Shown piece after piece: positions 1-12,577 of a stretch of DNA of 12,577 nucleotides; position 1 is the stretch's first letter; every line of letters begins with the position of its first letter. The position numbers and the translations under genes are program-made. This DNA is from Anaerolineales bacterium (GTDB lineage Bacteria > Chloroflexota > Anaerolineae > 4572-78 > NAK82). The notes beneath the pieces are model-generated. The model was not told the DNA's origin, ran no database searches, and saw only the letters and a list, made by a program, of their open reading frames with translations. The stretch covers positions 1 to 12,577 of the forward strand of contig JAHELX010000113.1 of NCBI GenBank assembly GCA_024643945.1. The letters are read 5' to 3'.

Positions 1-1
1 T

Positions 2-538
2 GGTGTGGATATTGGGAAGATTGAGTTTCCAGAAGGGGCAGAAGACACGCTCCTCAGGCGCTGGAGTGCGCCGTGGGCACAACAGATCGGGCTCATTGAG
101 GCAGAGACGAAGGGGCAAGGAGATTTACGAACTGGAATGTTAAAGGCTCAGGGTGAGCTGGAAGCCAAAATGCTCGAAGCGCAGGGTGAACTGGAAGCAG
201 CGAGACTGGAAGCGCAAGGTGATCTAGAAATCGCACGATTGAAAGCCAGGGCTATTTTGATCAACGCCAAAGCTGAGGCAACGAAACTGACTATGGAAGG
301 TTGCAGTAAGGCAGAAGCACAAGCTGCTTTCTTCCGGTGTATACTGGAATCACTGCAAATAGATGGCCGTCCCTCCGATCCTCGATTGGTCAGAGTTGTA
401 CTGGGACAACTGGCCCGTAGCTTTGCTTCAGTGAATGATCTTGAGACTTTTATGAGGGTACACGGTGAAATGAATCGGCAAGGTTTCATGATCCATCAAC
501 AGTTTGGTCGAAATGGTTCGGCTGAAGTGGGTGAGTAA
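2..538 (+). CDS. Probable SPFH/band-7 (stomatin/prohibitin-like) protein, C-terminal part only
   Basis: The reading frame is open to the left edge, so the gene is cut there. A GTG at 5 is the first possible internal start, but it is more likely an ordinary Val codon. Numbering from that GTG, residues 4-24 (GKIEFPEGAEDTL, then RRWSAPW) resemble the junction between an SPFH domain and its coiled-coil tail. Residues about 30-95 are a charged, Ala/Glu/Leu-rich helix made of 11-residue units (LEAQGELEAAR and variants at 46-56, 57-67 and 68-78, then a diverged copy at 79-89), which predicts a long coiled coil. The rest is a short mostly helical tail with no recognisable catalytic motif. SPFH proteins oligomerise on membranes and organise microdomains; membrane association cannot be checked because the N-terminus is missing. 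The next gene follows after 63 bases on the same strand. Family assignment is by resemblance only; a generic coiled-coil protein is the alternative. Confidence 0.5.
   Translation, partial: GVDIGKIEFPEGAEDTLLRRWSAPWAQQIGLIEAETKGQGDLRTGMLKAQGELEAKMLEAQGELEAARLEAQGDLEIARLKARAILINAKAEATKLTMEGCSKAEAQAAFFRCILESLQIDGRPSDPRLVRVVLGQLARSFASVNDLETFMRVHGEMNRQGFMIHQQFGRNGSAEVGE
140..271 (+). repeat. Tandem 33-base coding repeat (11-residue coiled-coil units)
   Basis: Three in-frame 33-base units lie at 140-172, 173-205 and 206-238, with a strongly diverged fourth at 239-271. Each encodes an 11-residue unit of the type L-x-A-Q-G-(E/D)-L-E-x-(A/K)-(R/M). An 11-residue period is typical of hendecad coiled coils, and the identity at DNA level suggests growth by tandem duplication within the gene. 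Confidence 0.75.
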
Positions 539-583
539 TTCACTCGGACAGTCTCTAGCAAGGTAGGATATCTGAAGATCGGG

Positions 584-588
584 GGAGG
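584..588 (+). promoter_or_regulatory. Ribosome binding site with long spacing
   Basis: A perfect GGAGG core lies inside a purine-rich run, 13 bases before the ATG at 602. The spacing is longer than the usual 5-9 bases, but no better start codon lies closer. Confidence 0.6.
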
Positions 589-601
589 AATAATAGCAAC
601 G

Positions 602-1678
602 ATGTCCGAACAAGCATGTTATGAAATCCTCAAGTTCCTCGAATCTCTTCAAGGTGAACAGCCCGAGTTGCCGGATGCGATCTTACATTATTGGCACAGA
701 GTCATAAAGACAGTCGTGAGAGAAAAGCCCAACTGGAATAAAGTCAGGAATTGCTGTGAGCATATCACAATGATTGTGACCAAGCTTCGAGGTGATGGTA
801 GAAACGTTATGAGAGTAGAGAAGACTGAGGGATTGGTCTCAATTCTTTTGGGCGCGATACATCTGGGCCAAAAAAATTATCGTGAGGCAATTGACCATTT
901 TGAGCAAGGGGCCAAATTTTTACAACGTTGGGGAGATCCTGATTTCGAAAGTCTGGCCTATTTTGGCAGAGTATTAACCTATAAAGAAGAGGAAAACTGG
1001 CCTGGTACTCTGGAAGCAGCGCAGAAGGCATTAGACGCAATCCGTGACCTTCCCCTTCATGATCGGTCCAAACCCATGAAGTCCCTACAAGAGCGGATTA
1101 AGGAGGAAATTGTTTTAGCCACAGAGGCTTCCATTAGAGATGCAGAGAGAACACCGTCCGGTGCTAAGCCAAAGCCATCTCAACCTTCGCGTCCCAAACC
1201 GACCGAGATACCGATAATAGGCGACATCGCTGCCGGGCTGGGCCGTATTACAGATGAAAACATTGAAGATTATTTTCTCTTGGGCGACAATTATCGTAAT
1301 GGGGCCGACTTTGGTGTGAAGGTGATGGGCGACAGTATGCAAGGTCATGGCATTTTGTCAGGGGATATCGCGCTTATCCGCCAGCAGCCGGCCATTGAGA
1401 TGGGAGAGATTGCAGCCGCGGTGGTTACCACACTCACAGAATCCCAGAGTGTGCTTAAGCAATACTATCACTATGAAGAACATGCAGACCTGCAGCATTG
1501 GTTTCTTAAATCCAGCAACCCTTTGAGCGAGCACCTGGTGATTATACCGAGTGGTGCAAACATAAAGGGAATTCAGGATCTTTATGCCCCGGATATTCAG
1601 GCCGGCAGGATTAGAATTTATGAGAATGCTGAGTTAACAATCGTCGGAAAATATGTCGGGTTAGTGAGAAATATCTAA
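602..1678 (+). CDS. TPR-like protein with C-terminal LexA-type S24 self-cleaving peptidase domain, no HTH
   Basis: This is a 358-residue protein. Residues 1-180 are all-helical, with two TPR-like hairpins at about 75-108 and 115-148. A Pro/Lys-rich linker (about 182-202) leads into an S24 (LexA/UmuD-like) domain at about 203-358. The domain keeps the key features. There is an Ala-Ala-Gly cleavage sequence with the scissile bond expected between A211 and G212. The nucleophile is S245 in VMGDSM and the general base is K286 in SVLKQYY. The 34-residue distance from scissile Ala to Ser matches LexA (A84 to S119) almost exactly. S24 proteins normally join this domain to a winged helix or XRE-type HTH; here a TPR-like region takes that place, so it may be a cleavage-triggered switch for a protein partner rather than a repressor. 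The start is ATG with a strong GGAGG at 584-588, although the 13-base spacing is long. Sampled GC is lower than in the downstream genes. Confidence 0.85.
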   Translation: MSEQACYEILKFLESLQGEQPELPDAILHYWHRVIKTVVREKPNWNKVRNCCEHITMIVTKLRGDGRNVMRVEKTEGLVSILLGAIHLGQKNYREAIDHFEQGAKFLQRWGDPDFESLAYFGRVLTYKEEENWPGTLEAAQKALDAIRDLPLHDRSKPMKSLQERIKEEIVLATEASIRDAERTPSGAKPKPSQPSRPKPTEIPIIGDIAAGLGRITDENIEDYFLLGDNYRNGADFGVKVMGDSMQGHGILSGDIALIRQQPAIEMGEIAAAVVTTLTESQSVLKQYYHYEEHADLQHWFLKSSNPLSEHLVIIPSGANIKGIQDLYAPDIQAGRIRIYENAELTIVGKYVGLVRNI

Positions 1679-1731
1679 AAGCCTGAGCTACCAGGAAACC
1701 AGTGCTTGTGTCAAGCAAAGCGAGGTGACCT

Positions 1732-2979
1732 ATGCCACTCTGTGTATCGTGCCGGGGGGAATATTGGCTTCCATTTGAAGGGAGAGCAACAACTGAGCCG
1801 GGAACATCGGCGGCTACTACACCCACCTGGCGTGAAGAGTTTCAGGCAGATGAACGAAGAGAAGCGGCGAGAGCTGCACCGCCCGACCTCGAAGGCGGCC
1901 AAGAGGCGGGATCGAGAACGCCTGTGGGCAATGTACCACCCCCGGCAGCTTCAGATCTGGCACAGTTGTACCGCCGCCCGGAAGTGCCAGCGTTTGTTTG
2001 CGCCCGTTGCGGGCAGAGCAACGAACACTGGCATGCCTGGGCCAGCCAGAGCGGCCTCATTCGTTTCAGCCGCTTCTTTTTCCACAGCCTCCCCTGGGGT
2101 TGGCTGGCGCTCATTTCTTTCGTGCTGCCTGTCGTCGCAGCCGCGGTTATCGATTTCACGCCAGTCGCTTCGGAGCGCATCGGTATCCCCCTGGCCATTT
2201 TACTGATCTTTGTCAACTTCGCCCTTCTATATGCCCTGAAGGACTCGCTGTGGCAGTATGATCACCTGGCCAGGGTGGGGCGCGGCTTCAGGCCTTCGCT
2301 GGCCTTGTTGACGGTAATCGCCTTTGTCCTGGCCCTGGTCTTTGGGCTGGCCCTGGTTTTCATGCTCGAAGCGCGCAAGGCCACACCGGAGGCGGGATCC
2401 ACCGAAGGATTGGTGCGGGTCATCACCACCATCCTGCTGGCCATGACCTTTGTCAACGTTACCCTCTCCGCCTTGTTCATGGCCGGGCACGATTACGGCA
2501 ATTGGTTGAATCGAGAGATGCCCCAGCCTATCTATTCCCAGGAAAGACGCCTGTTGAGAGTGATTGAGGATGGTTTGCGAGCGAAGATACGGCAGGCGAC
2601 AGGTAAAGATGGACCCGTGGAAATTACCATCGCTGACCTGGAGCGCAGCGCTGATGCCGGCGTTATTTTAATGGTCAACACGGAGACGGAGGTCAAACCA
2701 GATCCGGAGGGAGAAGCGCTGCGGCAACTGCAAAACTGGAGGGTCGAGGCGGACCGTTGGGGACAGATCATCAAGATGAGCCGCGAAGGCACGCCCCAGT
2801 ACATTGCCATAGAGAAGGCATCCACCAATGGCACGCCCGAGGCTGACCAGGGCAAGGCTGAGGCCGCAAAAGAAGGCGAGATAGTCGCCGCGAAAGAGAG
2901 TTACGCGGTAGAGAGCTACAAGACCCGGAGCGAGACTACTATTTCGATTGCCTCCCGCAGGCAACACTGGATGGAATAG
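1732..2979 (+). CDS. Zinc-ribbon four-helix membrane protein with split zinc ribbon
   Basis: This 415-residue protein belongs to no family I recognise. A CxxC pair at C4/C7 and a second pair at C90/C93 (CARC) would form a treble-clef or zinc-ribbon site. They are separated by about 82 residues that are Ala/Glu/Arg/Pro-rich and probably disordered. Four hydrophobic segments follow at about 121-140, 151-169, 188-211 and 228-250. After them comes a soluble domain (about 262-365) with the motif QNWRVEADRWG, and a low-complexity charged tail rich in Lys/Glu/Ala. The next gene is a clear paralogue: SLPWGWLAL against SPWGWLAL at the first helix, and NWRVEADRWG against HWRVVSDQWG in the C-terminal domain. 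The ATG at 1732 has GAGG at 1722-1725, six bases upstream. It follows the protease gene after 53 bases and could be co-transcribed, but the higher GC suggests a separate history. Function unknown. Confidence 0.8.
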   Translation: MPLCVSCRGEYWLPFEGRATTEPGTSAATTPTWREEFQADERREAARAAPPDLEGGQEAGSRTPVGNVPPPAASDLAQLYRRPEVPAFVCARCGQSNEHWHAWASQSGLIRFSRFFFHSLPWGWLALISFVLPVVAAAVIDFTPVASERIGIPLAILLIFVNFALLYALKDSLWQYDHLARVGRGFRPSLALLTVIAFVLALVFGLALVFMLEARKATPEAGSTEGLVRVITTILLAMTFVNVTLSALFMAGHDYGNWLNREMPQPIYSQERRLLRVIEDGLRAKIRQATGKDGPVEITIADLERSADAGVILMVNTETEVKPDPEGEALRQLQNWRVEADRWGQIIKMSREGTPQYIAIEKASTNGTPEADQGKAEAAKEGEIVAAKESYAVESYKTRSETTISIASRRQHWME

Positions 2980-2981
2980 CC

Positions 2982-4013
2982 TTGTTTGATCGAAGCCACC
3001 CTGCCACCCGCTGCGTATCCTGTCGCGCCGCCCTGGCCAATGCCCCGCCGGAGCGATGTCCCCGCTGCGGCGCTGACAACCGGGCCTGGTACGCCTGGAC
3101 CCAGGCCAGCTTGAAAGAACACCTCAAACGCTTTTTTCTCCGCAGCCCTTGGGGCTGGTTAGCGTTGGTCTCGCTCCTGCTGCCATGGGTCAGTTGGAGC
3201 GCTTTTGATTTTAAGCGGCCTGCCTTTGAAACGGGTGTCCTGTCTGCCTCCCTGCTCCTGAGCCTGGCCAGCTTGTTCCTCCTCTTCCGCGGGCGGGATG
3301 CCCTCTGGGTGTATGAACTGGCCGGCCGGGTTTCGCCCCGTTTGCGAGCCGGCCTGTTGCACCTGGGCGGAGCGGGCTTTTTGGTATTCGCGCTGGTGGG
3401 GGGCATGCTGGGGGTAGCCTGGGGATTGGGGGTTTTGAGAGGAGCAAGGTCAGAGTTCATGCAGCCGATGGGTTGGAAAGTACTGGCGGCGATAGGCCTG
3501 GCTTTTACCACCCAGGTGCTGGCAGCAGGCTTATACAACGTTTACGCCTATGGACGTTGGTCCTCCAGCACCTTCCCAGCGCCGGTCTTTTGGGACGAAA
3601 CCCGCCTGTTGTACCTGGTCGAGCGGGCGGCCAGGCCACGCATCCAGGTCAAAACCGGAAGGTATGCATATGAAGCGGTGGTGACCCGGGTGGCGGAGCT
3701 CTCGCGCACCGATCAGGCCGGCCTGAGTCTCAAAATCCGGGCGGAAGTGGCGACGGAGAAGGTCTTTGAGGGACATCCCTTGAAAGCGGTTCAGCATTGG
3801 CGGGTCGTGTCCGATCAGTGGGGCTATGTGAAACAGCTTGGCCCGGAGGGGCCACTGGAATACGTCCTCGACCCCAGTCGCCCGTATTCCGATCCTGAAG
3901 ATGTGAGGAAAGCTTTGGAAGGGGAAATCATTTTCCCCAAGAAGCGAACCCCGCCAACGCTGGAGGAAGCGATTATCCTGGCCTTGACATCTGACCATCA
4001 GCGGGAACTTTAG
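2982..4013 (+). CDS. Zinc-ribbon four-helix membrane protein, paralogue of the preceding gene
   Basis: This 343-residue protein starts at TTG, two bases after the stop of the preceding gene, which suggests translational coupling; no ATG or GTG lies nearby in frame. Its zinc ribbon is compact: C11/C14 (CVSC) and C26/C29 (CPRC), only 11 residues apart, in the normal form for such a fold. Hydrophobic segments lie at about 56-75, 84-103, 127-150 and 165-188. The C-terminal soluble domain (about 203-300) carries VQHWRVVSDQWG, shared with the upstream paralogue. Likely topology: the ribbon and the C-terminal domain on the same, cytoplasmic, side, with an even number of helices between; this is an inference. 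The last 41 bases overlap the end of the minus-strand receiver-kinase gene. Tandem duplication is the obvious origin, and the pair may form a hetero-oligomer. Function unknown. Confidence 0.8.
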   Translation: MFDRSHPATRCVSCRAALANAPPERCPRCGADNRAWYAWTQASLKEHLKRFFLRSPWGWLALVSLLLPWVSWSAFDFKRPAFETGVLSASLLLSLASLFLLFRGRDALWVYELAGRVSPRLRAGLLHLGGAGFLVFALVGGMLGVAWGLGVLRGARSEFMQPMGWKVLAAIGLAFTTQVLAAGLYNVYAYGRWSSSTFPAPVFWDETRLLYLVERAARPRIQVKTGRYAYEAVVTRVAELSRTDQAGLSLKIRAEVATEKVFEGHPLKAVQHWRVVSDQWGYVKQLGPEGPLEYVLDPSRPYSDPEDVRKALEGEIIFPKKRTPPTLEEAIILALTSDHQREL

Positions 4014-5628
4014 GATCGTTCCCTGTAGTCTGACTCTCCCCTGTGGCTGGCCAATCTCCTGGCGGCCATTCACCTCCCCAATGCCGAAGACGCTCACACA
4101 GCACAGCTCCCAGCAGCAGTGCTCGTTCTCGCTGAGGGGCACCTTCTGCAGCCAGCGTGGCCACAAAGAGGGTGTCTAACAGAAGCCCCCACAGGTACTC
4201 CCGGAAATCTCGGTAAGGGGCCACTTCGTAGGCCAGGCGCCGCAAGCCGGCGATGACGCCCAAGGCTTTGCGGGTTTCAGGCTCTGCCAGCAACTGCGCT
4301 GAGGCCCGGAATGGCGTCGCAGGTAGCGAAGGCTCCGCCAGGACAACCGCCAGTTGGTAGAGATGGGAAAGGCCATGCTCGGGAAACGAAACCAGCCGGG
4401 TAACCATATCCACCTCCAGCTCTACGAAATCCCGCAGAATGTGGCCCGGACCGGTTCGCTCAAAGTCAATGGCCCAGGCATGTTCATAGTCCACGAAGAG
4501 GTTCTCCCCGTGCAGATCGCCATGCGTGATGGCCTGGCGAGATTCAGGGATCAGGCTGTCATTGGCATGGCGAAGAACCCAAGGCACCGGATTTGTCAAC
4601 GAGACAGACAGGCCCGGGAAAGCCCACTTTTCCCCTTGATGGCCGAAGTTCTCTAAGCGTTCCTTCAGGCGCAATGCCCTATCATAGACCTGAAAAAGGG
4701 GGATAGACCTTTCTTGTAGAGGCTGAGCGTAGTACTTGCCCCACACTTCCTGGAAGAAATGCGCCAGAGGCCTCAAGATACCCAGGGGACCTTTCTCGTT
4801 TCGATAGAAGTCGGTGAAGGAAGGCAAAGCCTTCAAAGACGAACCCAAAAAATTGTAGGTGGCTCCTCCCAAGTCCCAGAATTCGACGGTTCGCTCCAAC
4901 TGGGCATAAAACTGCCCGACCAGGCGCCCCCTTGCATGTTCCTGGTAATTCCTCTCTTCATCGCGGATGCGCCTGGTTGGCGCCAGCTTTACGACGACAG
5001 GTTCAAGATCATCTGGGTGAACCTTCAAGACGACCGAACGTCCCCGCGGAACAGCGCGTGGGGTGACTACTTTCGTCCCTAAGATCTCCAGCGATAGCTC
5101 GTTATTATCGGGAAAGAGTCGGCCCAGGACGTCCTCTACCATGTCAAAAGGCACATCACTGTCGGGGCCGAAGAGTGCTTCCACAACGCGCTCAGAACTC
5201 AGAGCCGGAGCGCGATGCAGGCGAAGGTCTCCTCGGCAGGTCTCGCGAGCTGCCCTGGCCACCTCGTCCAGCAATCGTTGTGGCGACTCGCTCTTGCTGA
5301 CCCAACTGGCGGCCCCGTGGTGAGCTTCGCGGGTCACTTCCGGCCTTAGATAAGCTGAGTAAAGAATGGAACGTGCCGACTGCAAACTATTCAAGAGTAC
5401 CAGGCCGCTGCGATCGTCGCTGTATTCATCCAGCAGGCGGACATCCACAATGGCCACGTGAGGGCGGAAGCTATGGGCAAGGGTCATCGCCTGGTCCAGC
5501 AGTTCCTGTCCAGCTCCCTGCGCGACCTGGACCTCATACCCCAGCGGTTCAAGTATCCCTTGTAAATCTGGCCCCACTCGGGGGTCATTATCTATGACCA
5601 ATACCCGAGCTGTGCATCGCTTTGCCAT
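3973..5628 (-). CDS. Response-regulator receiver fused to an aminoglycoside-phosphotransferase-like kinase
   Basis: This is a 551-residue protein. Residues 6-128 form a receiver domain: acidic pair D13/D15, phospho-acceptor D62 in AIVDVRL, switch residue S91 and K112 in VSKSES. After a linker comes an APH/choline-kinase-like kinase (about 185-490). K214 in VVVKLAP is the likely beta-3 lysine and E225 the likely helix-C glutamate. H369-G-D371-L-H-x-x-N376 is the Brenner-type catalytic loop, and D388 in AIDFE is the metal-binding aspartate. Every residue needed for phosphotransfer is present. APH-fold kinases act on small molecules or proteins, so phosphorylation of the receiver probably controls kinase output. 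No DNA-binding domain is present. The ATG at 5626-5628 is preceded by AGAGG about 12 bases upstream. It is the last gene of the minus-strand signalling cluster, now separated from its neighbour by a MITE. From memory it may belong with the TCAD-type kinase-like domains of predicted ternary conflict systems; that link is weak. Confidence 0.85.
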   Translation of the reverse strand: MAKRCTARVLVIDNDPRVGPDLQGILEPLGYEVQVAQGAGQELLDQAMTLAHSFRPHVAIVDVRLLDEYSDDRSGLVLLNSLQSARSILYSAYLRPEVTREAHHGAASWVSKSESPQRLLDEVARAARETCRGDLRLHRAPALSSERVVEALFGPDSDVPFDMVEDVLGRLFPDNNELSLEILGTKVVTPRAVPRGRSVVLKVHPDDLEPVVVKLAPTRRIRDEERNYQEHARGRLVGQFYAQLERTVEFWDLGGATYNFLGSSLKALPSFTDFYRNEKGPLGILRPLAHFFQEVWGKYYAQPLQERSIPLFQVYDRALRLKERLENFGHQGEKWAFPGLSVSLTNPVPWVLRHANDSLIPESRQAITHGDLHGENLFVDYEHAWAIDFERTGPGHILRDFVELEVDMVTRLVSFPEHGLSHLYQLAVVLAEPSLPATPFRASAQLLAEPETRKALGVIAGLRRLAYEVAPYRDFREYLWGLLLDTLFVATLAAEGAPQRERALLLGAVLCERLRHWGGEWPPGDWPATGESQTTGNDPKVPADGQMSRPG

Positions 5629-5637
5629 TTATTTATT

Positions 5638-5645
5638 CTGCCTCT
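5638..5645. repeat. Left 8-bp target-site duplication of the MITE
   Basis: CTGCCTCT abuts the left inverted end of the 121-bp element and is repeated exactly, in direct orientation, at the other end. On the minus strand this copy supplies the AGAGG that serves as ribosome binding site of the receiver-kinase gene. Confidence 0.8.
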
Positions 5646-5766
5646 GTAACTGCTCAGGCTGGCCCAGGTGCAACGCACTTGCGCCGTATCCTCAAGCACG
5701 TCCTGTCAAAGCAAGCCGCTGTGACATTGCAGCAAAGTGCGTTGCACCTTTTGGCTGAGTAGTTAC
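5646..5766. mobile_element. 121-bp MITE with IS66-like ends
   Basis: The two ends are inverted repeats. The left arm (5646-5680) starts GTAACTGCTCAG and finishes AGGTGCAACGCACTT. The right arm (5735-5766), read in reverse complement, starts GTAACTACTCAG and finishes with the same 15 bases. The terminal 12 match at 11 positions and the inner 15 match perfectly; only the short stretch between them differs. Fifty-four bases of non-repeated sequence lie between the arms and contain no gene. Both ends abut an exact 8-bp direct repeat. IS66-family elements are known for ends starting GTAA and for 8-bp duplications, so this element was probably moved in trans by such a transposase. It sits between the second and third genes of the minus-strand signalling cluster. 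Confidence 0.8.
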
Positions 5767-5774
5767 CTGCCTCT
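5767..5774. repeat. Right 8-bp target-site duplication of the MITE
   Basis: CTGCCTCT abuts the right end of the element and is identical to the copy at 5638-5645. It lies 14 bases beyond the stop codon of the multi-GAF kinase gene, so the insertion damaged no coding sequence. Confidence 0.8.
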
Positions 5775-5788
5775 TCAACTGGCCCCTT

Positions 5789-8700
5789 TCAACGAGAGTC
5801 TGCCGCCAGTTGAGCCAGCGGTATGCCGAAGGCAAAACAGGCACCTTCTCCCGATTGGGTCCCGACCAATTTCGCATATCCGCCATGTTGCTCCGCCAGA
5901 AAATGTACCAGGAGCAGCCCCCGCCCCAGGCGCCCGTCTTCATGCGGAATCGGCTGCCGGAAGAGTATGGGTATGATCTCCGGCCGGACGCCTTGCCCTG
6001 TGTCTTCCACCTGCACCTCGGCCATAGAGCCTTGAACCGCGGTGCGTATGGTCACCAGCCGCGTCTCTTGGTTGGGCAGGAAAGACTTGACCGCATTGTG
6101 GACGAGATGCCGCAGCAAGCGCCGCAACCATTGCTCGTGGATGGCCACCCTGATGTTTGTACAATTCGGCTCCAGTCGCAAGGTGACCGAAGGATGAATC
6201 GCTTGAAGATCCTGTACTTCAGCCCGGATTACTTCGTCCAGGAGAGGCGCGTTCCTGAATTCCAAAACACGTCCCGATTCAGGGGCCTGCTCTGGAAGTT
6301 CTGGCAGGGCAAGGCGGCCGGTGTAGTGATCTATATCCTGCAAACGCTCCTTTACTGCGGGGGCAAGATCAGCGCGCTGTTGGAGCCCGAAAATAGCACG
6401 GCGGATAGCACCGACTTCCCGGTTGACGTCGTGGACAACATCGGCTCCCCAGGCACCCATCAAAGCCACGGCATTGGTACGACTAAGCTGCTCTGCTCGC
6501 CCTGAATTCTTGATGGCGATCACCGCCAGATCAGCCAAAGCCTGCAATGCCTGCTCATCATCCTCATCGAACGCTCCCCCATGGTCACTCTCGACGCTTA
6601 ACACGCCGATGATTTTGCTACCGTCGAGCAAGGGCACATCCAGCTCTGACCGGGTGGTGGCATTGATCTCTATATAGTCAGAGTCGGTCCCGACATCTTT
6701 GACCCGTTGGGGCTTCCCTTCCAGAACAGTCCGGCCAGTGATACCGATCCTGCCATTGGGCGCTTTGTCGCTGTCTAGAGATCTCCTCTCGCCCGCCCTG
6801 GATTGAAACTCCGGTAATGCCTGGGGCGGATAGACGCTCTCAAGCTGAAGTTCGTTGGTCACTTCATCGTACAACACAATAGCGCCGCGTATCGCTTTGG
6901 GACCTTTGATACCTGTGATACGTTCCACGGCTTGCTCCGCAATGCGATCCAAGACCTGCTTTCGCTTCGCGGCAAACCCGGCTGCGATCGCCTTGCTGGC
7001 CTCATGGAGCGCCTGCAAATGTTGGCTGCGGCGCTTAATGGCGTCATATAATCCGGCGTTGTGGATAGCGATGGCGGCCTGGGCCGCCATGCCCTCGATG
7101 ATCTCCCGCTCATCTTCGCTGAAATAACCCGGCTCAGGGTGCTCCAGGTTGAGCACGCCAATACACTGCTCGCCGATCAAGAGGGGCACCGCCAGCTCCG
7201 AATGCGTCCCTGCCCAAAACTCCCGGTAAATATCCTGCCAGGGTGGCTGGGTGACGTCGTGCACGATGATCGAGCGTTTCTCTCGCGCTGCTTTGCCAGT
7301 GATCCCTTCTCCTAACTTAAGGCGGGGATGCTCCAGCGGCACTAACGTCCCGCCCGTTCGCGACTGGATAATCAACTCCCCTGTCTCCTCGTCCAGCAAC
7401 TGCAGTAGACCATTTTGGACATTGACCAACTCCATCGCTTTGTCCAGGATGAGGGGCAACACCTCGTTCAGGTCAAGGGTCGAGGTGATGAGTTGATTGA
7501 TCTCACTCACTGTCTGAAGTTCGGTCACTTTTTGTTCCAGCTTCTCACTGGTGCGACCGTAGAGGCGGGCATTCCAGATAGCAATCGCGGCCTGGTTAGC
7601 GAATAAGTCGATGAGGTCCAGTTCGTCGTCGCTCCACTGGTGGGGCTGGCGAAAGTTGACGAAGAGGATGCCCACCGGCTCGGTGGCGTCGAGGCGGATG
7701 CCTACGAAGGCTCGGGTATGCTCTCGCCTAACGAAACTGTGTTGAAGCAAGTTGGAATCGTCCTGGGCAGCATCGTAAATGATCATGCGCCCCTCTCTCA
7801 GCACCCGCGACGATACCCCGGGACCTTCCGCCGGGCGCAGCTTCTCCCGGTACTTGAGTTCATGCCGCAAGCCAAACGCACCGACATTAGCCAGGTCGTA
7901 CCTCCTGGACTCGGCCAGGTAGGGATAGATGACGGCACAATCAGCTCCGGTCATCTGACACGCTTTATGCGCGATCTTGTCCAACAAGATTTTGGATTGA
8001 GTGGTAATGTTTCGAGTCACTTCCTGCTCGACCTCTAACAGCGCCTTCAGGGTTTTGGCTTGTTGGAACTCTCTGTCATAGAGGCGGGCATTTTCGATAG
8101 CCACAGCCGCCTGGTTGGCGAAGGTCATCAGCAGCGCGACGCGGTCTTCTGGGAACGCACCAGGCATAAGACTGTGCACGAAGAGCACACCGACCACTTT
8201 GCGTTTGGTTTTGAGTGGCAGGCCGACGTAAGAGGCCACACCGGCCTGAATTAGATAGGGGTTATGGTCTCCCTCGGGCTCAATTTGATGCGCGATAAAG
8301 GGTTCCCCGCTGACGAGCACCCGACGGGTTGTTCCGTTGGGGCGAGCCCGTTCGTGCAAGGGGGGGATGTCCCGGAAAACGTCGGTAACTTTTTCCACAC
8401 TCTCGCTCAGCCGGCCGGTGTCGTCCACCAACACCACGCTGACGTTGTCGGAATCAGCCACTTCGGCTGCCAGGGCCACCACCTCGTTCAGGACTTGCCG
8501 CAAGTCCAGGGAGGAGGCAACCACCTGCGAGGCATGATGTATCTTATCCAGATCGTCCAGTCGCCCTTGAGTCTCCGAGAAGAGACGCGCGTTCTCGATG
8601 GCGATGGCTGCCTGATTGGCAAAAATCGTAGCCACGCGAGCATCATCTTCATCGTAGAAGCCAGGCGTCTGGCTATCGAGGGTGATAACGCCGATGGCCT

Positions 8701-9466
8701 CGTCCCAGTAGATGAGCGGCACCCCCAGCCAGCCCCGTACATGCCGGGCGTGGTAAGCGGCTTGCAAGTCATACTCAATCCGAGGTTGTCGGCTCCGCCA
8801 CACCTGGTAGTTGGGAAGTTCTTCATCGAGCGGAAAGACGTGGCCGAGCAGTTCGTTCGGGTCGGAGAATCCCCGGCAGGCGACGACCTGGAGTCCCGCG
8901 TCGATGATGTGTTGGATGGAGGCGCTGTCGTAGACGACGACGCGTTTCATCTCGTCCAAGATGAGTTCCAGTACCTGCTCTAACTCCAGGGTGGAGTTGA
9001 CGCTTTGCGACACCTGGAGCAGGCTTTCCAACCAGGCTTTCTCGCGGGACGTCGCCTCCAGTTTCTCCCTGGTTCTGCGTACCTCGACGATGGATTGAAT
9101 GAGGATGGCCAGTTCCTCCCGGTCGAAGGGCTTGGCCAGGTAACGGTAAGCACCGGCCTTGAGCGCCTCAACGCCCACCTGTGGATCCAGGCCCCAGCCG
9201 GTGAAGATGATGAAGTCCATAGACGCGTCAGGGCAACGGCCCTGAATCTCCTTCATCAGTGTGATGCCGTTGTGAGGTGCGGGCAAGAGGTAGTCGAGCA
9301 GAATCACGTCGAAGCAGCCGTTTGCCGCCAGCATGTCCAGAGCCTCCAAACCGCTGGCGGCTGTTTCTACATGGTAGTCGTGTTCCTCTGCCAGCCAATT
9401 CGCCAGCGGGGTGCGCAGACTCTCTTCGTCGTCCACGATCAGGACCCGAATCGGACTGTCAGACAT
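5789..9466 (-). CDS. Hybrid sensor: receiver, five GAF domains, histidine kinase
   Basis: This is a 1225-residue soluble protein with no membrane segment or signal peptide. The receiver at 6-125 has D12/D13, phospho-acceptor D58 in LLDYLLP, T89 and K112. Five GAF domains follow at about 150-295, 310-460, 475-635, 650-805 and 815-985; each ends in a variant of ANQAAIAIENARLY, joined by short helical linkers. The kinase core has a probable phospho-acceptor H1012 in VVHDVNREVG, an N box with N1124 (VHNAVKS), a G1 box DTGQG at 1155-1159 and a G2 region GRLGRGL from 1178. The H box lacks the usual Asn-Pro, so it is atypical. GAF domains bind small ligands or chromophores; none shows a Cys or motif that lets me name a ligand. 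The ATG at 9464-9466 is preferred over a TTG one codon earlier, because AAAGGAG then lies 7 bases upstream instead of 4. It lies 50 bases after the S1-domain kinase gene and is probably in the same operon. Confidence 0.92.
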   Translation of the reverse strand: MSDSPIRVLIVDDEESLRTPLANWLAEEHDYHVETAASGLEALDMLAANGCFDVILLDYLLPAPHNGITLMKEIQGRCPDASMDFIIFTGWGLDPQVGVEALKAGAYRYLAKPFDREELAILIQSIVEVRRTREKLEATSREKAWLESLLQVSQSVNSTLELEQVLELILDEMKRVVVYDSASIQHIIDAGLQVVACRGFSDPNELLGHVFPLDEELPNYQVWRSRQPRIEYDLQAAYHARHVRGWLGVPLIYWDEAIGVITLDSQTPGFYDEDDARVATIFANQAAIAIENARLFSETQGRLDDLDKIHHASQVVASSLDLRQVLNEVVALAAEVADSDNVSVVLVDDTGRLSESVEKVTDVFRDIPPLHERARPNGTTRRVLVSGEPFIAHQIEPEGDHNPYLIQAGVASYVGLPLKTKRKVVGVLFVHSLMPGAFPEDRVALLMTFANQAAVAIENARLYDREFQQAKTLKALLEVEQEVTRNITTQSKILLDKIAHKACQMTGADCAVIYPYLAESRRYDLANVGAFGLRHELKYREKLRPAEGPGVSSRVLREGRMIIYDAAQDDSNLLQHSFVRREHTRAFVGIRLDATEPVGILFVNFRQPHQWSDDELDLIDLFANQAAIAIWNARLYGRTSEKLEQKVTELQTVSEINQLITSTLDLNEVLPLILDKAMELVNVQNGLLQLLDEETGELIIQSRTGGTLVPLEHPRLKLGEGITGKAAREKRSIIVHDVTQPPWQDIYREFWAGTHSELAVPLLIGEQCIGVLNLEHPEPGYFSEDEREIIEGMAAQAAIAIHNAGLYDAIKRRSQHLQALHEASKAIAAGFAAKRKQVLDRIAEQAVERITGIKGPKAIRGAIVLYDEVTNELQLESVYPPQALPEFQSRAGERRSLDSDKAPNGRIGITGRTVLEGKPQRVKDVGTDSDYIEINATTRSELDVPLLDGSKIIGVLSVESDHGGAFDEDDEQALQALADLAVIAIKNSGRAEQLSRTNAVALMGAWGADVVHDVNREVGAIRRAIFGLQQRADLAPAVKERLQDIDHYTGRLALPELPEQAPESGRVLEFRNAPLLDEVIRAEVQDLQAIHPSVTLRLEPNCTNIRVAIHEQWLRRLLRHLVHNAVKSFLPNQETRLVTIRTAVQGSMAEVQVEDTGQGVRPEIIPILFRQPIPHEDGRLGRGLLLVHFLAEQHGGYAKLVGTQSGEGACFAFGIPLAQLAADSR

Positions 9467-9473
9467 CAAGTAT

Positions 9474-9480
9474 CTCCTTT
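9474..9480 (-). promoter_or_regulatory. Ribosome binding site deciding the start of the multi-GAF kinase
   Basis: AAAGGAG on the minus strand lies 7 bases before the ATG at 9466 and only 4 before the TTG at 9469, which favours the ATG. It directly follows the 3' arm of a 15-bp inverted repeat. Confidence 0.7.
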
Positions 9481-9538
9481 GCCCCTATCCGAAAAGTATG
9501 CAGGCATAGGGATACCCCCCTATTTTTCGGATAGGGGC
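9481..9538 (-). repeat. 15-bp perfect inverted repeat spanning a stop codon and the next gene's leader
   Basis: GCCCCTATCCGAAAA (9481-9495) and its exact reverse complement (9524-9538) enclose 28 bases, which themselves contain a weaker ATAGGG/CCCTAT pair (9506-9511 and 9518-9523). On the minus strand the first arm encodes the last residues (PLSE, then K and stop) of the S1-domain kinase, and the second arm ends directly at the AAAGGAG of the next gene. No T-run follows in either direction, so it is not an intrinsic terminator. It may be an RNA hairpin affecting translation or stability, or a small palindromic repeat element. No flanking direct repeat is seen. Confidence 0.7.
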
Positions 9539-11850
9539 TCCACAATCAATGGCAACTCTATCAAGAAAGTGGTACCCACCAGCATCACGCTCTCGGCAAT
9601 ACTGATGCGCCCCCCCATCGACTCGATGAGGCCGCGGGTGATGTACAGCCCCAACCCGGTTCCCTCCTGGCGCCGCGTGGTAAATCCCAGCGTGAAGACC
9701 TGGTCGAAGTGCTGGCGGTGGATACCCGGACCGTCGTCGGCGATGCGAATCTTGATGGGGTAGGTCGGATCGTCGGGCACGTGTTCGCTGCTCACTTCTA
9801 CCCGGCCACCCCCATTGTGTTGTTCAATTTGCTGGATGGCGTTGAGGATGACGTTGTGGAAAGCCTGTTGCAACCGCACGCCCACGACCAGGGTACGCGG
9901 CAATTCGGACGCCAATTGGGGTTTCAACTCTACCTGGTGTTTGCGGGCCAGCGGATCCAGGAGGCGCAGGGTGCGACGGATGACATCGTTCACATTCATC
10001 AACTGGGCTTCCTCACCCGTGATCAGGGCCCGAAACATGCGCGCTGTCTCCAATACACTGCGATTCATATCGGCGATCGTTTCAGCGGTGCGATATAGGT
10101 CACGGTAGAGAAAGGTGCCGGCCAGGTCGGCCTGCTCTCGTGCCAGCCGCTCGAAACCAGCCAGCAAGTTTCGGGTGTGGAATTCGACGCTTGCCAGCTT
10201 GTTGTTGACCTCATGCGCCAGACCGCCGCTGAGTTGCCCTACGAGAAATAACCGCTGGAAGGAGCGCATCATGCGCTCCACCATACGCCGCTCAATGGCT
10301 GCCCCCATGACGACTGAGGTGGATAGCGCGCGCTGCAAGTGATGCGAGGTAAAATGGCCCCCGGCAGAGTGGAAAAGGAAGAGCCCGTGCCGAACGCTGT
10401 TTTGCGCCTTAATAGGTACCCCGATGCAGGATCCAAAATTGACCAGGGGCAATAAGTAACGAAAGCGGGCCGCTCCCCGCCCCCTGGCATCACCCTCCCA
10501 GATCACCTGGCGCTCCAGGATGACGTCTTTAACCGGACTCTCACCCAGACCATGCCTGGACTGCTCAAAAGCCAGGGGATCGCCGCTGTAGGCCATAAGC
10601 GAGACGGCCTGAGTCACGGGATCCATCTCAAACACAGCCCCGGCTGTGGCGTTTGCCTCCCCCTGCAGTTCATCCAGGGCAGAAGTCAGGGCGTGAACCA
10701 GAGTGCCGCGTTCTTCGACCACCTGCGACACCCGTTGAAAGAAGTCTATCTCCTCCGCCAGGTCTTTGCTTTGGGCTAGGTCGAGGTCCCTGCCAAGTTC
10801 ATCGCCGCTTTCCAACTGCTCAAGCAGGGCCTGGATCTCCTGTGGGGTGAAGGGCTTGAGCAACACTGAGGCCAGATTCGTAGCTTCGATGCCAGCGCTG
10901 TGTTCGTCGGCCAGACTTGCGCCGGTGATCAACACAATTCGGCTGGATGGCCGTTCGGTCAGGATACGCCGCGTAGCCTCCAGGCCATCCATACCAGGCA
11001 GGTTGAGGTCCATAAAAATCAGCCCATAGTCACTCTCCAGAGCGCGCTTGATACCATTCTCTCCACTGTAAACCGTTTCGACCTCATAGCCCATGCGGTA
11101 AATCCAGCGCTCCATAAGGTCGGCCAGCGCTTCCTCGTCGTCCACGATCAAGATTTTCCCCAGCCGGCGATCACGTCTCTTGGCCTGCTCCGACTCACCC
11201 CAGACCTGGCGCTCCAATTGCCTGGCCGTTAGCCCCAACCGGTCCCCCAGCGAAACCTGCATCCCCGGCTCCCGACTCACGTATTCGGAGATAATGGCCC
11301 GCGTCGCCTCCCGTTCCTGACGCTTGAGGTACTTTTTGATGCTCAATGCGACGTGTCGCTTGGAGGGATCAATGCTCAAGATCTCGGCTCGCACATCATC
11401 GCCTACCCAGAGAAGGTCTTCTACTTGTTCCACAAACCACGGTGCGATTTCGCCGATGTGTACCAGCCCCACCACGCCGGGGGTGATCTCCACGAAGGCT
11501 CCATAAGGCATTACCCGGATCACCTGGCCGAGAACAGCCTGGCCGGGCTTGAACTCCTTGGCGAAATCCCCCCACGGATCGTATTCCACCAACCGGCGGC
11601 TGAGCTCCACCCGGTGACTTTCATAATCGACGTCAACGACCACGACCTCAATGCGCTGCCCGGGCGACGCAATATCCTGAGGTATGGCTTCGCTGTCCCA
11701 GCTTAGGTCCCGCTGGCGAATGATGCCCTGGACGCCATCGTCAAACTCGACAAAGGCACCAAAGCGCAGCACCTTCGTCACCCGACCGGTAACGCGCGAC
11801 CAGCGCGGGTAGTTGCGTTCAACTAGCCGCCAGGAGTCGTCATCTTTCAT
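9520..11850 (-). CDS. S1-domain hybrid histidine kinase (S1-S1-receiver-GAF-HisKA-HATPase)
   Basis: This is a 776-residue soluble protein. Two S1-type OB folds occur at about 16-86 (GRVTKVLRFGAFVEF...) and 100-172 (GQVIRVMPYGAFVEI...GLVHIGEI), each with the GAFVE signature seen in ribosomal protein S1 and PNPase. A charged helical linker (about 173-228) leads to a receiver at 231-345: D237/D238, phospho-acceptor D281 in IFMDLNLPGMDG, T309 and K332. A GAF-like region spans about 375-525. The kinase core has H546 in GGLAHEVNNKLAS, N670 in VILNAIQQ, DDGPG at 705-709 and GTGLGL at 730-735, all intact. S1 domains bind RNA or other nucleic acid, so the input may be nucleic acid; S1 in front of a histidine kinase is unusual. 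The ATG at 11848-11850 has GGAG (11860-11863) 9 bases upstream and an extended -10 promoter before that. It is the first gene of the minus-strand cluster. Confidence 0.92.
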   Translation of the reverse strand: MKDDDSWRLVERNYPRWSRVTGRVTKVLRFGAFVEFDDGVQGIIRQRDLSWDSEAIPQDIASPGQRIEVVVVDVDYESHRVELSRRLVEYDPWGDFAKEFKPGQAVLGQVIRVMPYGAFVEITPGVVGLVHIGEIAPWFVEQVEDLLWVGDDVRAEILSIDPSKRHVALSIKKYLKRQEREATRAIISEYVSREPGMQVSLGDRLGLTARQLERQVWGESEQAKRRDRRLGKILIVDDEEALADLMERWIYRMGYEVETVYSGENGIKRALESDYGLIFMDLNLPGMDGLEATRRILTERPSSRIVLITGASLADEHSAGIEATNLASVLLKPFTPQEIQALLEQLESGDELGRDLDLAQSKDLAEEIDFFQRVSQVVEERGTLVHALTSALDELQGEANATAGAVFEMDPVTQAVSLMAYSGDPLAFEQSRHGLGESPVKDVILERQVIWEGDARGRGAARFRYLLPLVNFGSCIGVPIKAQNSVRHGLFLFHSAGGHFTSHHLQRALSTSVVMGAAIERRMVERMMRSFQRLFLVGQLSGGLAHEVNNKLASVEFHTRNLLAGFERLAREQADLAGTFLYRDLYRTAETIADMNRSVLETARMFRALITGEEAQLMNVNDVIRRTLRLLDPLARKHQVELKPQLASELPRTLVVGVRLQQAFHNVILNAIQQIEQHNGGGRVEVSSEHVPDDPTYPIKIRIADDGPGIHRQHFDQVFTLGFTTRRQEGTGLGLYITRGLIESMGGRISIAESVMLVGTTFLIELPLIVEPLSEK

Positions 11851-11859
11851 GTCAGTCGT

Positions 11860-11863
11860 CTCC
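11860..11863 (-). promoter_or_regulatory. Ribosome binding site of the S1-domain kinase
   Basis: GGAG on the minus strand lies 9 bases before the ATG at 11850, within a leader of roughly 30 bases. Confidence 0.55.
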
Positions 11864-11886
11864 AGGTTACGATATGGTCTCTGTTT

Positions 11887-11895
11887 ATTATACCA
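11887..11895 (-). promoter_or_regulatory. Extended -10 promoter of the minus-strand signalling cluster
   Basis: On the minus strand TGG is followed at once by a perfect TATAAT, the extended -10 form TGnTATAAT. The hexamer at -35 (about TACAAT with a 17-base spacer) is poor, as is common for extended -10 promoters. The start of transcription would fall near 11880, leaving a leader of about 30 bases before the S1-domain kinase gene. Confidence 0.65.
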
Positions 11896-11940
11896 TAACT
11901 TATTGTATTATTGTACGGCCTTTCCATAACGGATTATTGT
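11893..11940 (-). repeat. Paired direct repeats upstream of the promoter, possible operator
   Basis: CCATAAC occurs at 11893-11899 and 11924-11930, and ATTATTGT at 11907-11914 and 11933-11940, all in the same orientation. The proximal CCATAAC overlaps the TG of the extended -10. The copies are 31 and 26 bases apart, in AT-rich DNA. They could be binding sites for a regulator; no known operator is recognised. Confidence 0.4.
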
Positions 11941-11970
11941 TCGGTAAGATCATAAGCCCAGGAAAAACAC

Positions 11971-12007
11971 AAATCCCCCCTGCCTCATAGTGAGGCAGGG
12001 GGGATTT
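11971..12007 (-). terminator. Intrinsic terminator of the cysteine synthase gene
   Basis: A 17-bp perfect inverted repeat (11971-11987 and 11991-12007) with a 3-base loop and a run of six C/G pairs lies 17 bases beyond the cysteine synthase stop. On the minus strand the stem is followed by GTGTTTTTCC, a short U-tract. Only the minus direction has the T-run. It insulates the signalling cluster from the gene upstream of it. Confidence 0.88.
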
Positions 12008-12024
12008 CGCATCAAGCAAAATCA

Positions 12025-12577
12025 CTATCGGCGGTCGCAGTCGTCACACAGGCTCAAATACTTCTCCCCCCCATCCGGAAACACCGTCACCACCACACCC
12101 TGCTCCAGCGAGCAGGCCACCTGCAAGGCAGCCCACATAGCCGCGCCGGAGGAGTAGCCCACAAACAGCCCTTCCTCGCGCGCCAGGCGCGCCGCCATCT
12201 CGTGGGCGGCTTCTGTCTGGACGGCAATTTTGCCGTCAGGGAAGCTCGGGTCGTAGATACCGGGCACAATAGAGGTTTCCATGTGCTTCAAGCCCTCAAT
12301 GACGGCCAGTTCGTCCGCCGGCTCCACGGCGATGACTTGCACCGCCGGATTGTAAAGCTTGAGGCGGCGGCCAGTGCCCATCAGCGTGCCGCTGGTGCCG
12401 ATGCCAGCTATGAAGTGGGTCACCTGCCCCCCCGTCTGGCGCCATATCTCGTGCCCAGTGGTCTCGAAGTGGGCGCGCCAGTTGGCGGGGTTATTGTATT
12501 GGTCGGGGCGATAATAGCGATCTGGCTCCGCCTGGCAGAGACGCTGGCACTCGCGGATGGCGCCGTCGATTCCCTCT
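12025..12577 (-). CDS. PLP-dependent cysteine synthase (CysK/CysM family), C-terminal 184 residues
   Basis: The frame is open through the right edge of the window, so the N-terminal part, including the PLP-binding lysine, lies outside. The visible part shows NNPANWRAHFETTGHEIW, the glycine-rich GIGTSGTLMGTGRRL loop that holds the PLP phosphate, VIAVEPAD, VGYSSGAA and the end motif FPDGGEKYLS. These mark the fold-type II beta-family enzymes that make cysteine from O-acetylserine (or O-phosphoserine) and sulfide or a sulfur carrier. The details resemble CysM-like enzymes more than E. coli CysK, but donor choice cannot be read from this fragment. The protein ends in LCDDCDRR; this Cys-x-x-Cys pair is not a standard part of the fold. 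The stop is TAG at 12025-12027, followed by a strong terminator. A house-keeping gene, probably unrelated to the signalling cluster. Confidence 0.93.
   Translation of the reverse strand, partial: EGIDGAIRECQRLCQAEPDRYYRPDQYNNPANWRAHFETTGHEIWRQTGGQVTHFIAGIGTSGTLMGTGRRLKLYNPAVQVIAVEPADELAVIEGLKHMETSIVPGIYDPSFPDGKIAVQTEAAHEMAARLAREEGLFVGYSSGAAMWAALQVACSLEQGVVVTVFPDGGEKYLSLCDDCDRR

Follow-up and report, generated by a model that had tools for sequence, protein, structure and literature searches.

The window analysed in this work is a 12,577-nt stretch from an Anaerolineales bacterium (contig JAHELX010000113.1, positions 1 to 12,577), and its minus strand carries a run of three genes that encode two histidine kinases and a protein in which a receiver (REC) domain is coupled to a kinase domain. 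The REC-kinase gene (P0001; 3973..5628, minus strand) is a single open reading frame (ORF) of 551 aa, consisting of an N-terminal receiver domain (residues 6–130; 5239..5613), a linker (residues 131–196; 5041..5238), a kinase domain of the APH superfamily that belongs to the TCAD9 family (residues 197–520; 4069..5040) and a C-terminal tail (residues 521–551; 3976..4068), which is the site of effector-domain attachment in relatives. Directly upstream lies a gene for a 1226-aa REC-GAF(x5)-histidine kinase (5789..9469, minus strand), identified by Pfam and motifs, and second upstream, also by Pfam, a gene for a 776-aa S1-S1-REC-GAF-histidine kinase (9520..11850, minus strand). The gaps along the run, in the direction of transcription, are 50 and 160 bp.

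The window protein is an intact receiver followed by an APH-superfamily kinase. All five receiver residues, D13, D15, D62, S91 and K112, are where an initial annotation, made from the sequence without database searches, had placed them, and the codon of D62, the predicted phospho-acceptor of the receiver active site, occupies 5443..5445. The Pfam receiver model (PF00072) scores 22.1 bits in the window protein, below its curated cut-off of 30.2; several homologues pass this cut-off (for example L049 with 54.3 and L048 with 61.4 bits), and structure prediction gives a receiver fold for the N-terminal part. The kinase half exceeds the curated cut-offs of both TCAD9 (PF19974; 82.7 bits against 40) and APH (PF01636; 28.4 bits against 23.2), which confirms the receiver-to-kinase fusion that had been proposed and places the C-terminal part in kinase families by the very profile search that had been put forward to refute it. 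Among the catalytic residues proposed for the APH fold, K214, the HGD motif at 369–371 (codons 4516..4524), N376 and D388 stand, whereas the conserved αC glutamate is E224 rather than E225. Given that the kinase half scores over the TCAD9 cut-off, the domain is already catalogued; a figure legend in PMC10910872 describes TCAD9 as ‘ternary complex-associated domain 9’ of vWA-MoxR-VMAP conflict systems.

Because the list from the full-length VIA run was filled by receivers, the kinase region was modelled separately from the receiver. Folded alone, it is predicted to adopt the fold of an APH-superfamily kinase, the outcome expected by the initial annotation. Identity to solved structures is ~8–16% among the structure matches listed, and many APH-superfamily families were tied in Z; assignment of a substrate from structure was given up on account of this tie. 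By sequence, solved structures were matched weakly, with receivers from E 0.003 and a single kinase, hygromycin-B 7''-O-kinase, at E 0.042. Residues 536–551 form a short low-confidence tail with a predicted local distance difference test score below 50. Chance adjacency of two domains, or a decayed gene, was ruled out by the single ORF and by the retention of catalytic residues in relatives.

Conservation was assessed in an alignment of 86 proteins, in which the window protein was joined by 85 of the 120 listed homologues (242 were found; 35 were omitted by hand for size). Within this set no variation is seen at D62, S91, H369, G370 and N376; K112 is retained in 82 proteins, K214, E224 and D388 in 85 each and D371 in 84, and position 13 is Asp in 77, Glu in three and a gap in six. 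The six kinase positions checked are all intact in 82 of the 86 and are kept throughout a more diverse set (20/20). Four receiver positions are unaltered in 76; of the remaining proteins, six have N-terminal gaps and four have K112A. The linker is the least conserved part of the protein, with a mean identity to the window protein of 39%. Since the catalytic positions are kept across the 86 aligned proteins, selection appears to maintain both active sites, which are lost on occasion.

To place the gene in context, 40 related loci from GTDB genomes were compared, with neighbouring genes called by a simple ORF finder that splits or misses some genes (L017, L027, L035). L030 and L031 come from opposite ends of a single contig, and L041, L045 and L052 repeat loci among the 40. 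With L035 and L040 (no full ORF) and L034 and L036 (at a contig edge) set aside, 36 loci were testable, and in 35 of them the gene immediately upstream, on the same strand, encodes a histidine kinase; in L030, the one exception, this place is taken by an AAA ATPase gene. A counterpart of the S1-REC-histidine kinase is second upstream in 18 loci. A genome survey, which shares some genomes with the 40 loci, found a histidine kinase directly upstream in 10 of 12 loci. The phosphorelay input envisaged by the initial annotation is backed by this linkage; phosphotransfer and kinase activity themselves are inferred.

On the other side of the gene, one family of AAA/STAND-like ATPases is next downstream in 29 of the 40 loci, in 25 cases on the same strand and in four in convergent orientation. 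A set of 28 such proteins (27 of the 30 STAND-family ORFs, without L006_4, L027_12 and L027_13, plus one from L047) matched AAA_16 in 13 cases, AAA_22 in seven, nSTAND1 in six and NB-ARC in one at E ≤0.001, and the Walker-type residues G34, G39, K40 and D139 are invariant in the family alignment. The linkage between TCAD9 and an ATPase also occurs where the receiver is missing. In L068 a receiver-less TCAD9 is fused to NB-ARC (37.7 bits, cut-off 23.5), in L030 to AAA_16 (24.3 bits, under the cut-off) and TPRs, and in L059 it is followed by a gene weakly matching AAA_22 (24 bits, cut-off 27). It is mainly for this reason that the ATPase is placed downstream of the kinase in the scheme proposed below. 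Judged from gene order and domain content, kinase and STAND ATPase appear to belong together.

Relatives of the window protein also carry domains of effector types at the C-terminal tail. Among the 120 listed close homologues, precomputed Pfam annotation gave TIR in nine, SIR2 in four, and EAD7 and guanylate cyclase in one each, and examples of all four fusions were confirmed (P0010, TIR_2, 8.8e-32; P0019, SIR2_2, 2.8e-24; P0053, EAD7, 4e-13; P0105, guanylate cyclase, 2.1e-9). The TIR and SIR2 families include NADases. L001 has the three-gene order of the window with a TIR domain at the end (2.3e-23), and in L046 the gene of a REC-TCAD9-caspase protein (Peptidase_C14, 8.9e-20) has a histidine kinase gene on one side and a STAND gene on the other. 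L034 encodes a TCAD9-CHAT protein (6.2e-20) with no receiver detected by BLAST or Pfam, and in L008 a REC-CHAT protease-like gene (11977-13632, minus strand) lies directly behind a second REC-TCAD9 gene, a further case in which a receiver is joined to an effector. Other homologues have tails that resemble membrane segments or lack a Pfam match. A strict either/or between an effector tail and a STAND neighbour was ruled out by three loci that have both, namely L005 (a 148-residue tail), L034 (TCAD9-CHAT) and L046 (the caspase tail).

TCAD9 occurs in further arrangements. L049 encodes a divergent REC-TCAD9 protein that scores 266.8 bits against TCAD9 and, on account of this score, REC-TCAD9 proteins such as this one may be close to the founding members of the TCAD9 family. 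In L054 (637-2814, plus strand) TCAD9 (202.5 bits) is preceded by an isochorismatase-like part and followed by a DSP/PTPase-like one, bringing kinase and phosphatase-like domains within one protein, and in L058 (940-2862, plus strand) Clp_N is fused to TCAD9, an input other than a receiver.

The reading favoured by this evidence, with moderate confidence, is that the REC-kinase stands at the end of a phosphorelay cassette as its response regulator and gates its kinase to switch a STAND ATPase or a fused effector. Phosphate would reach D62 from the REC-GAF histidine kinase, which is the constant neighbour, and perhaps from the S1 histidine kinase as well. The phosphorylated receiver would then change the state of the attached APH-superfamily kinase, either freeing or blocking it, and the kinase would phosphorylate a small molecule or a partner protein, which may be a metabolite or the STAND protein. 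In consequence a responder would be switched on, usually the adjoining STAND-type ATPase and in some relatives the fused TIR, SIR2 or caspase-type protease. For the window copy, the responder would be encoded outside the window, so that the protein acts through a partner encoded elsewhere, or the kinase itself would be the output. The initial annotation had gone as far as phosphorelay control over the phosphorylation of a small molecule or protein; because a STAND-like ATPase partner recurs and relatives carry TIR, SIR2 and caspase domains, a more specific output is suggested. A bolder form of the proposal, entertained only tentatively, is a new class of two-component output. A histidine kinase phosphorelay would here gate an APH-fold kinase, and what this kinase makes, or the partner that it phosphorylates, would in turn license a STAND ATPase or an effector of the TIR, SIR2 or caspase type, so that a sensor kinase could trigger cell death or immunity. 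Such a role in cell death or immunity is plausible rather than established.

Several observations weigh against a gated kinase that switches such responders. The window protein itself lacks an effector tail, and no STAND gene is visible near it; the gene next downstream is convergent and membrane-protein-like. The REC-kinase matched none of the PADLOC-DB 2.0.0 families at E ≤0.1 (both window histidine kinases gave weak matches, to REC-type PADLOC models only), and none of 120 listed members of a more distant clade carries an extra Pfam domain. The ATPase family mostly matches AAA/STAND models weakly, with AAA_16 reaching E ≤0.001 in only 13 of 28. In L051 a transposase-like gene occupies the place of the histidine kinase, and four homologues carry K112A. 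Further points of this kind, on transcription, gene neighbourhood and catalysis, bear on particular alternatives and are taken up with them.

The alternative that survives best, though it is judged rather unlikely, is that the phosphorelay serves metabolic or transcriptional signalling, the kinase making a phosphorylated metabolite or modifying a STAND transcription regulator and thereby tuning gene expression, without involvement of conflict or cell death. A Trans_reg_C DNA-binding domain is found in seven of the 28 STAND-like partners, which fits transcription as the output and keeps a purely transcriptional output credible, and many metabolite kinases are among the APH-superfamily matches tied in Z. 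The absence of an effector tail from the window copy points the same way. The neighbourhood was sampled in 91 of 192 neighbour ORFs of the related loci, with STAND, SPFH and unknown families, L035 and L040 and some ORFs hand-picked for size omitted, and among the 25 of 120 families listed it comprises ordinary housekeeping Pfam families and nothing resembling a defence island. Against such a switch stand the TIR, SIR2, caspase, CHAT and EAD7 domains on relatives, which would be unusual for a purely metabolic one.

An improbable alternative makes the kinase domain a non-catalytic or nucleotide-sensing scaffold, in which case the receiver would cause the STAND or effector part to assemble or be released, and phosphate transfer would be irrelevant. 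The SIR2-fused homologue P0022 retains its tail despite K214R and D388G, so catalysis is not always needed, and P0004 and P0036 carry D371N. Excerpts of PMC7159879 describe most conflict-system kinase domains as catalytically disrupted, but refer there to other kinase families and call the APH ones active, and the retention of all six kinase positions in 82 of 86 aligned proteins and in the 20 diverse ones argues for catalysis. A receiver acting as a nucleotide-responsive switch independent of histidine kinases, or as a cyclic-phosphate-processing cRec domain, along lines proposed in excerpts of PMC8195603 and PMC7824862 for receivers away from histidine kinases, is very hard to reconcile with the histidine kinase gene that immediately precedes the REC-kinase gene in 35 of 36 testable loci and with a preserved phospho-acceptor pocket.

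The remaining features of the window surround this cassette. The S1 histidine kinase (9520-11850, minus strand) is of the hybrid type and carries two S1 RNA-binding domains at its N-terminus; sensing through RNA binding would be an unusual input, and a literature search turned up nothing relevant to it. The 160-bp gap before the REC-kinase gene contains a 14-bp perfect inverted repeat (arms 5735-5748 and 5667-5680, minus strand); the predicted RNA fold of the gap has a z of -2.76, two of 200 shuffles fold equally well, and the corresponding gap is much shorter in most related loci. On the plus strand, a pair of paralogues (1732-2979 and 2982-4013; BLAST E ~1e-36 to 1e-41) resembles, by eye, zinc-ribbon and membrane proteins, and neither matched Pfam over cut-off. 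The second of these genes is convergent with the REC-kinase gene and overlaps its 3' end by 41 bp. A further gene (602-1678, plus strand) encodes a Peptidase_S24/LexA-like domain (9.8e-16) after a TPR-like N-terminal part with weak TPR matches, and a coiled-coil-like ORF (2-538, plus strand) is left open by the edge of the window. The beginning of this ORF looks, by eye only, like the end of SPFH proteins, and no Pfam match to it was significant. No BLAST link was found between the plus-strand genes of the window and neighbours in the related loci. An SPFH/Band_7-like protein does recur upstream in 16 of those loci (one of two scanned passes the Pfam cut-off), and a family of ~365 residues is present in 17 (for example L014:1854-2960, plus strand), usually between the SPFH-like and S1 histidine kinase genes, with no Pfam match at E ≤0.1 in the two members scanned.

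The related loci are concentrated in Chloroflexota (37 of 40, some presumed to belong there by organism name), the rest being from Nitrospirae, Gemmatales and a weak match in Propionibacteriaceae. In the phylum of G003, the genome of L014, the whole protein was matched at E 1e-20 in 11 of 400 genomes, TCAD9 exceeded its cut-off in 19 and was matched at E 1e-8 in 23. A TCAD9 control on 14 genomes matched seven in the first search, none over the cut-off, and none at E 1e-8. In the phylum of G006, the genome of L034, two of 294 genomes matched at 1e-15, one being G006 itself. Carriage as plasmid or phage cargo was discarded, as no tblastn match at E 1e-5 was present in 72,556 plasmid or 50,697 phage records.

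The constituent parts of the cassette are not new. TCAD9 is named in Pfam, and excerpts of PMC7159879 and PMC8195603 already report receivers and APH-type kinases as conflict effectors, the former with a few active APH-type kinases, sporadic receivers and no histidine kinases among vWA-associated effectors, and the latter with receivers that occur apart from histidine kinases and with effectors of related systems that include small-molecule kinases. The same domain types, with recurring TIR, caspase, EAD and STAND partners, link the window protein to these MoxR-vWA conflict effectors, but here a histidine kinase is the most constant neighbour, and the same linkage separates it from the cRec class, proposed in the excerpted text of PMC7824862 as never found in histidine kinase systems. 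The window kinase half is itself a TCAD9 domain; in contrast to that of vWA-MoxR-VMAP systems, it is attached to a receiver and sits behind histidine kinases, with no vWA or MoxR domain found by Pfam among the eight window ORFs scanned. In the related loci, neither turned up in the 25 of 120 families listed for 91 of the 192 neighbour ORFs. It shares its fold and catalytic motifs with APH-superfamily kinases (aminoglycoside phosphotransferases, choline, methylthioribose and glucosamine kinases, LxmK), but differs in its fusion to a receiver and its low identity to the solved structures. As in response regulators with enzymatic output, the receiver is N-terminal to an enzyme and a histidine kinase is encoded in the same gene run, the difference being that the output enzyme is an APH-superfamily kinase. 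Because conflict-system receivers are described, in the published text seen, as lacking histidine kinases, the cassette looks like a histidine-kinase-wired variant of TCAD9 kinase modules. Titles and abstracts of the papers listed by literature searches contained no histidine-kinase-linked REC-APH protein, which is weak evidence of absence given that most subscription papers and all bioRxiv preprints were outside coverage, and within the same limited coverage neither TCAD9 biochemistry nor a characterized REC-APH output was found. Annotation pipelines have already seen the fusion, since some source annotations label homologues ‘thiamine kinase-like enzyme/CheY-like chemotaxis protein’.

The input to conflict-system receivers and APH-type kinases has so far been unclear, with histidine kinases reported missing there in the excerpted literature. 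In the conserved cassette a well-understood input, the phosphorelay, meets a TCAD9 kinase together with partners of the STAND, TIR, SIR2 and caspase types. What TCAD9 kinases do thereby becomes accessible to standard phosphotransfer and kinase assays, and the arrangement points to a little-studied wiring of sensing to responses of the immunity or cell-death type.
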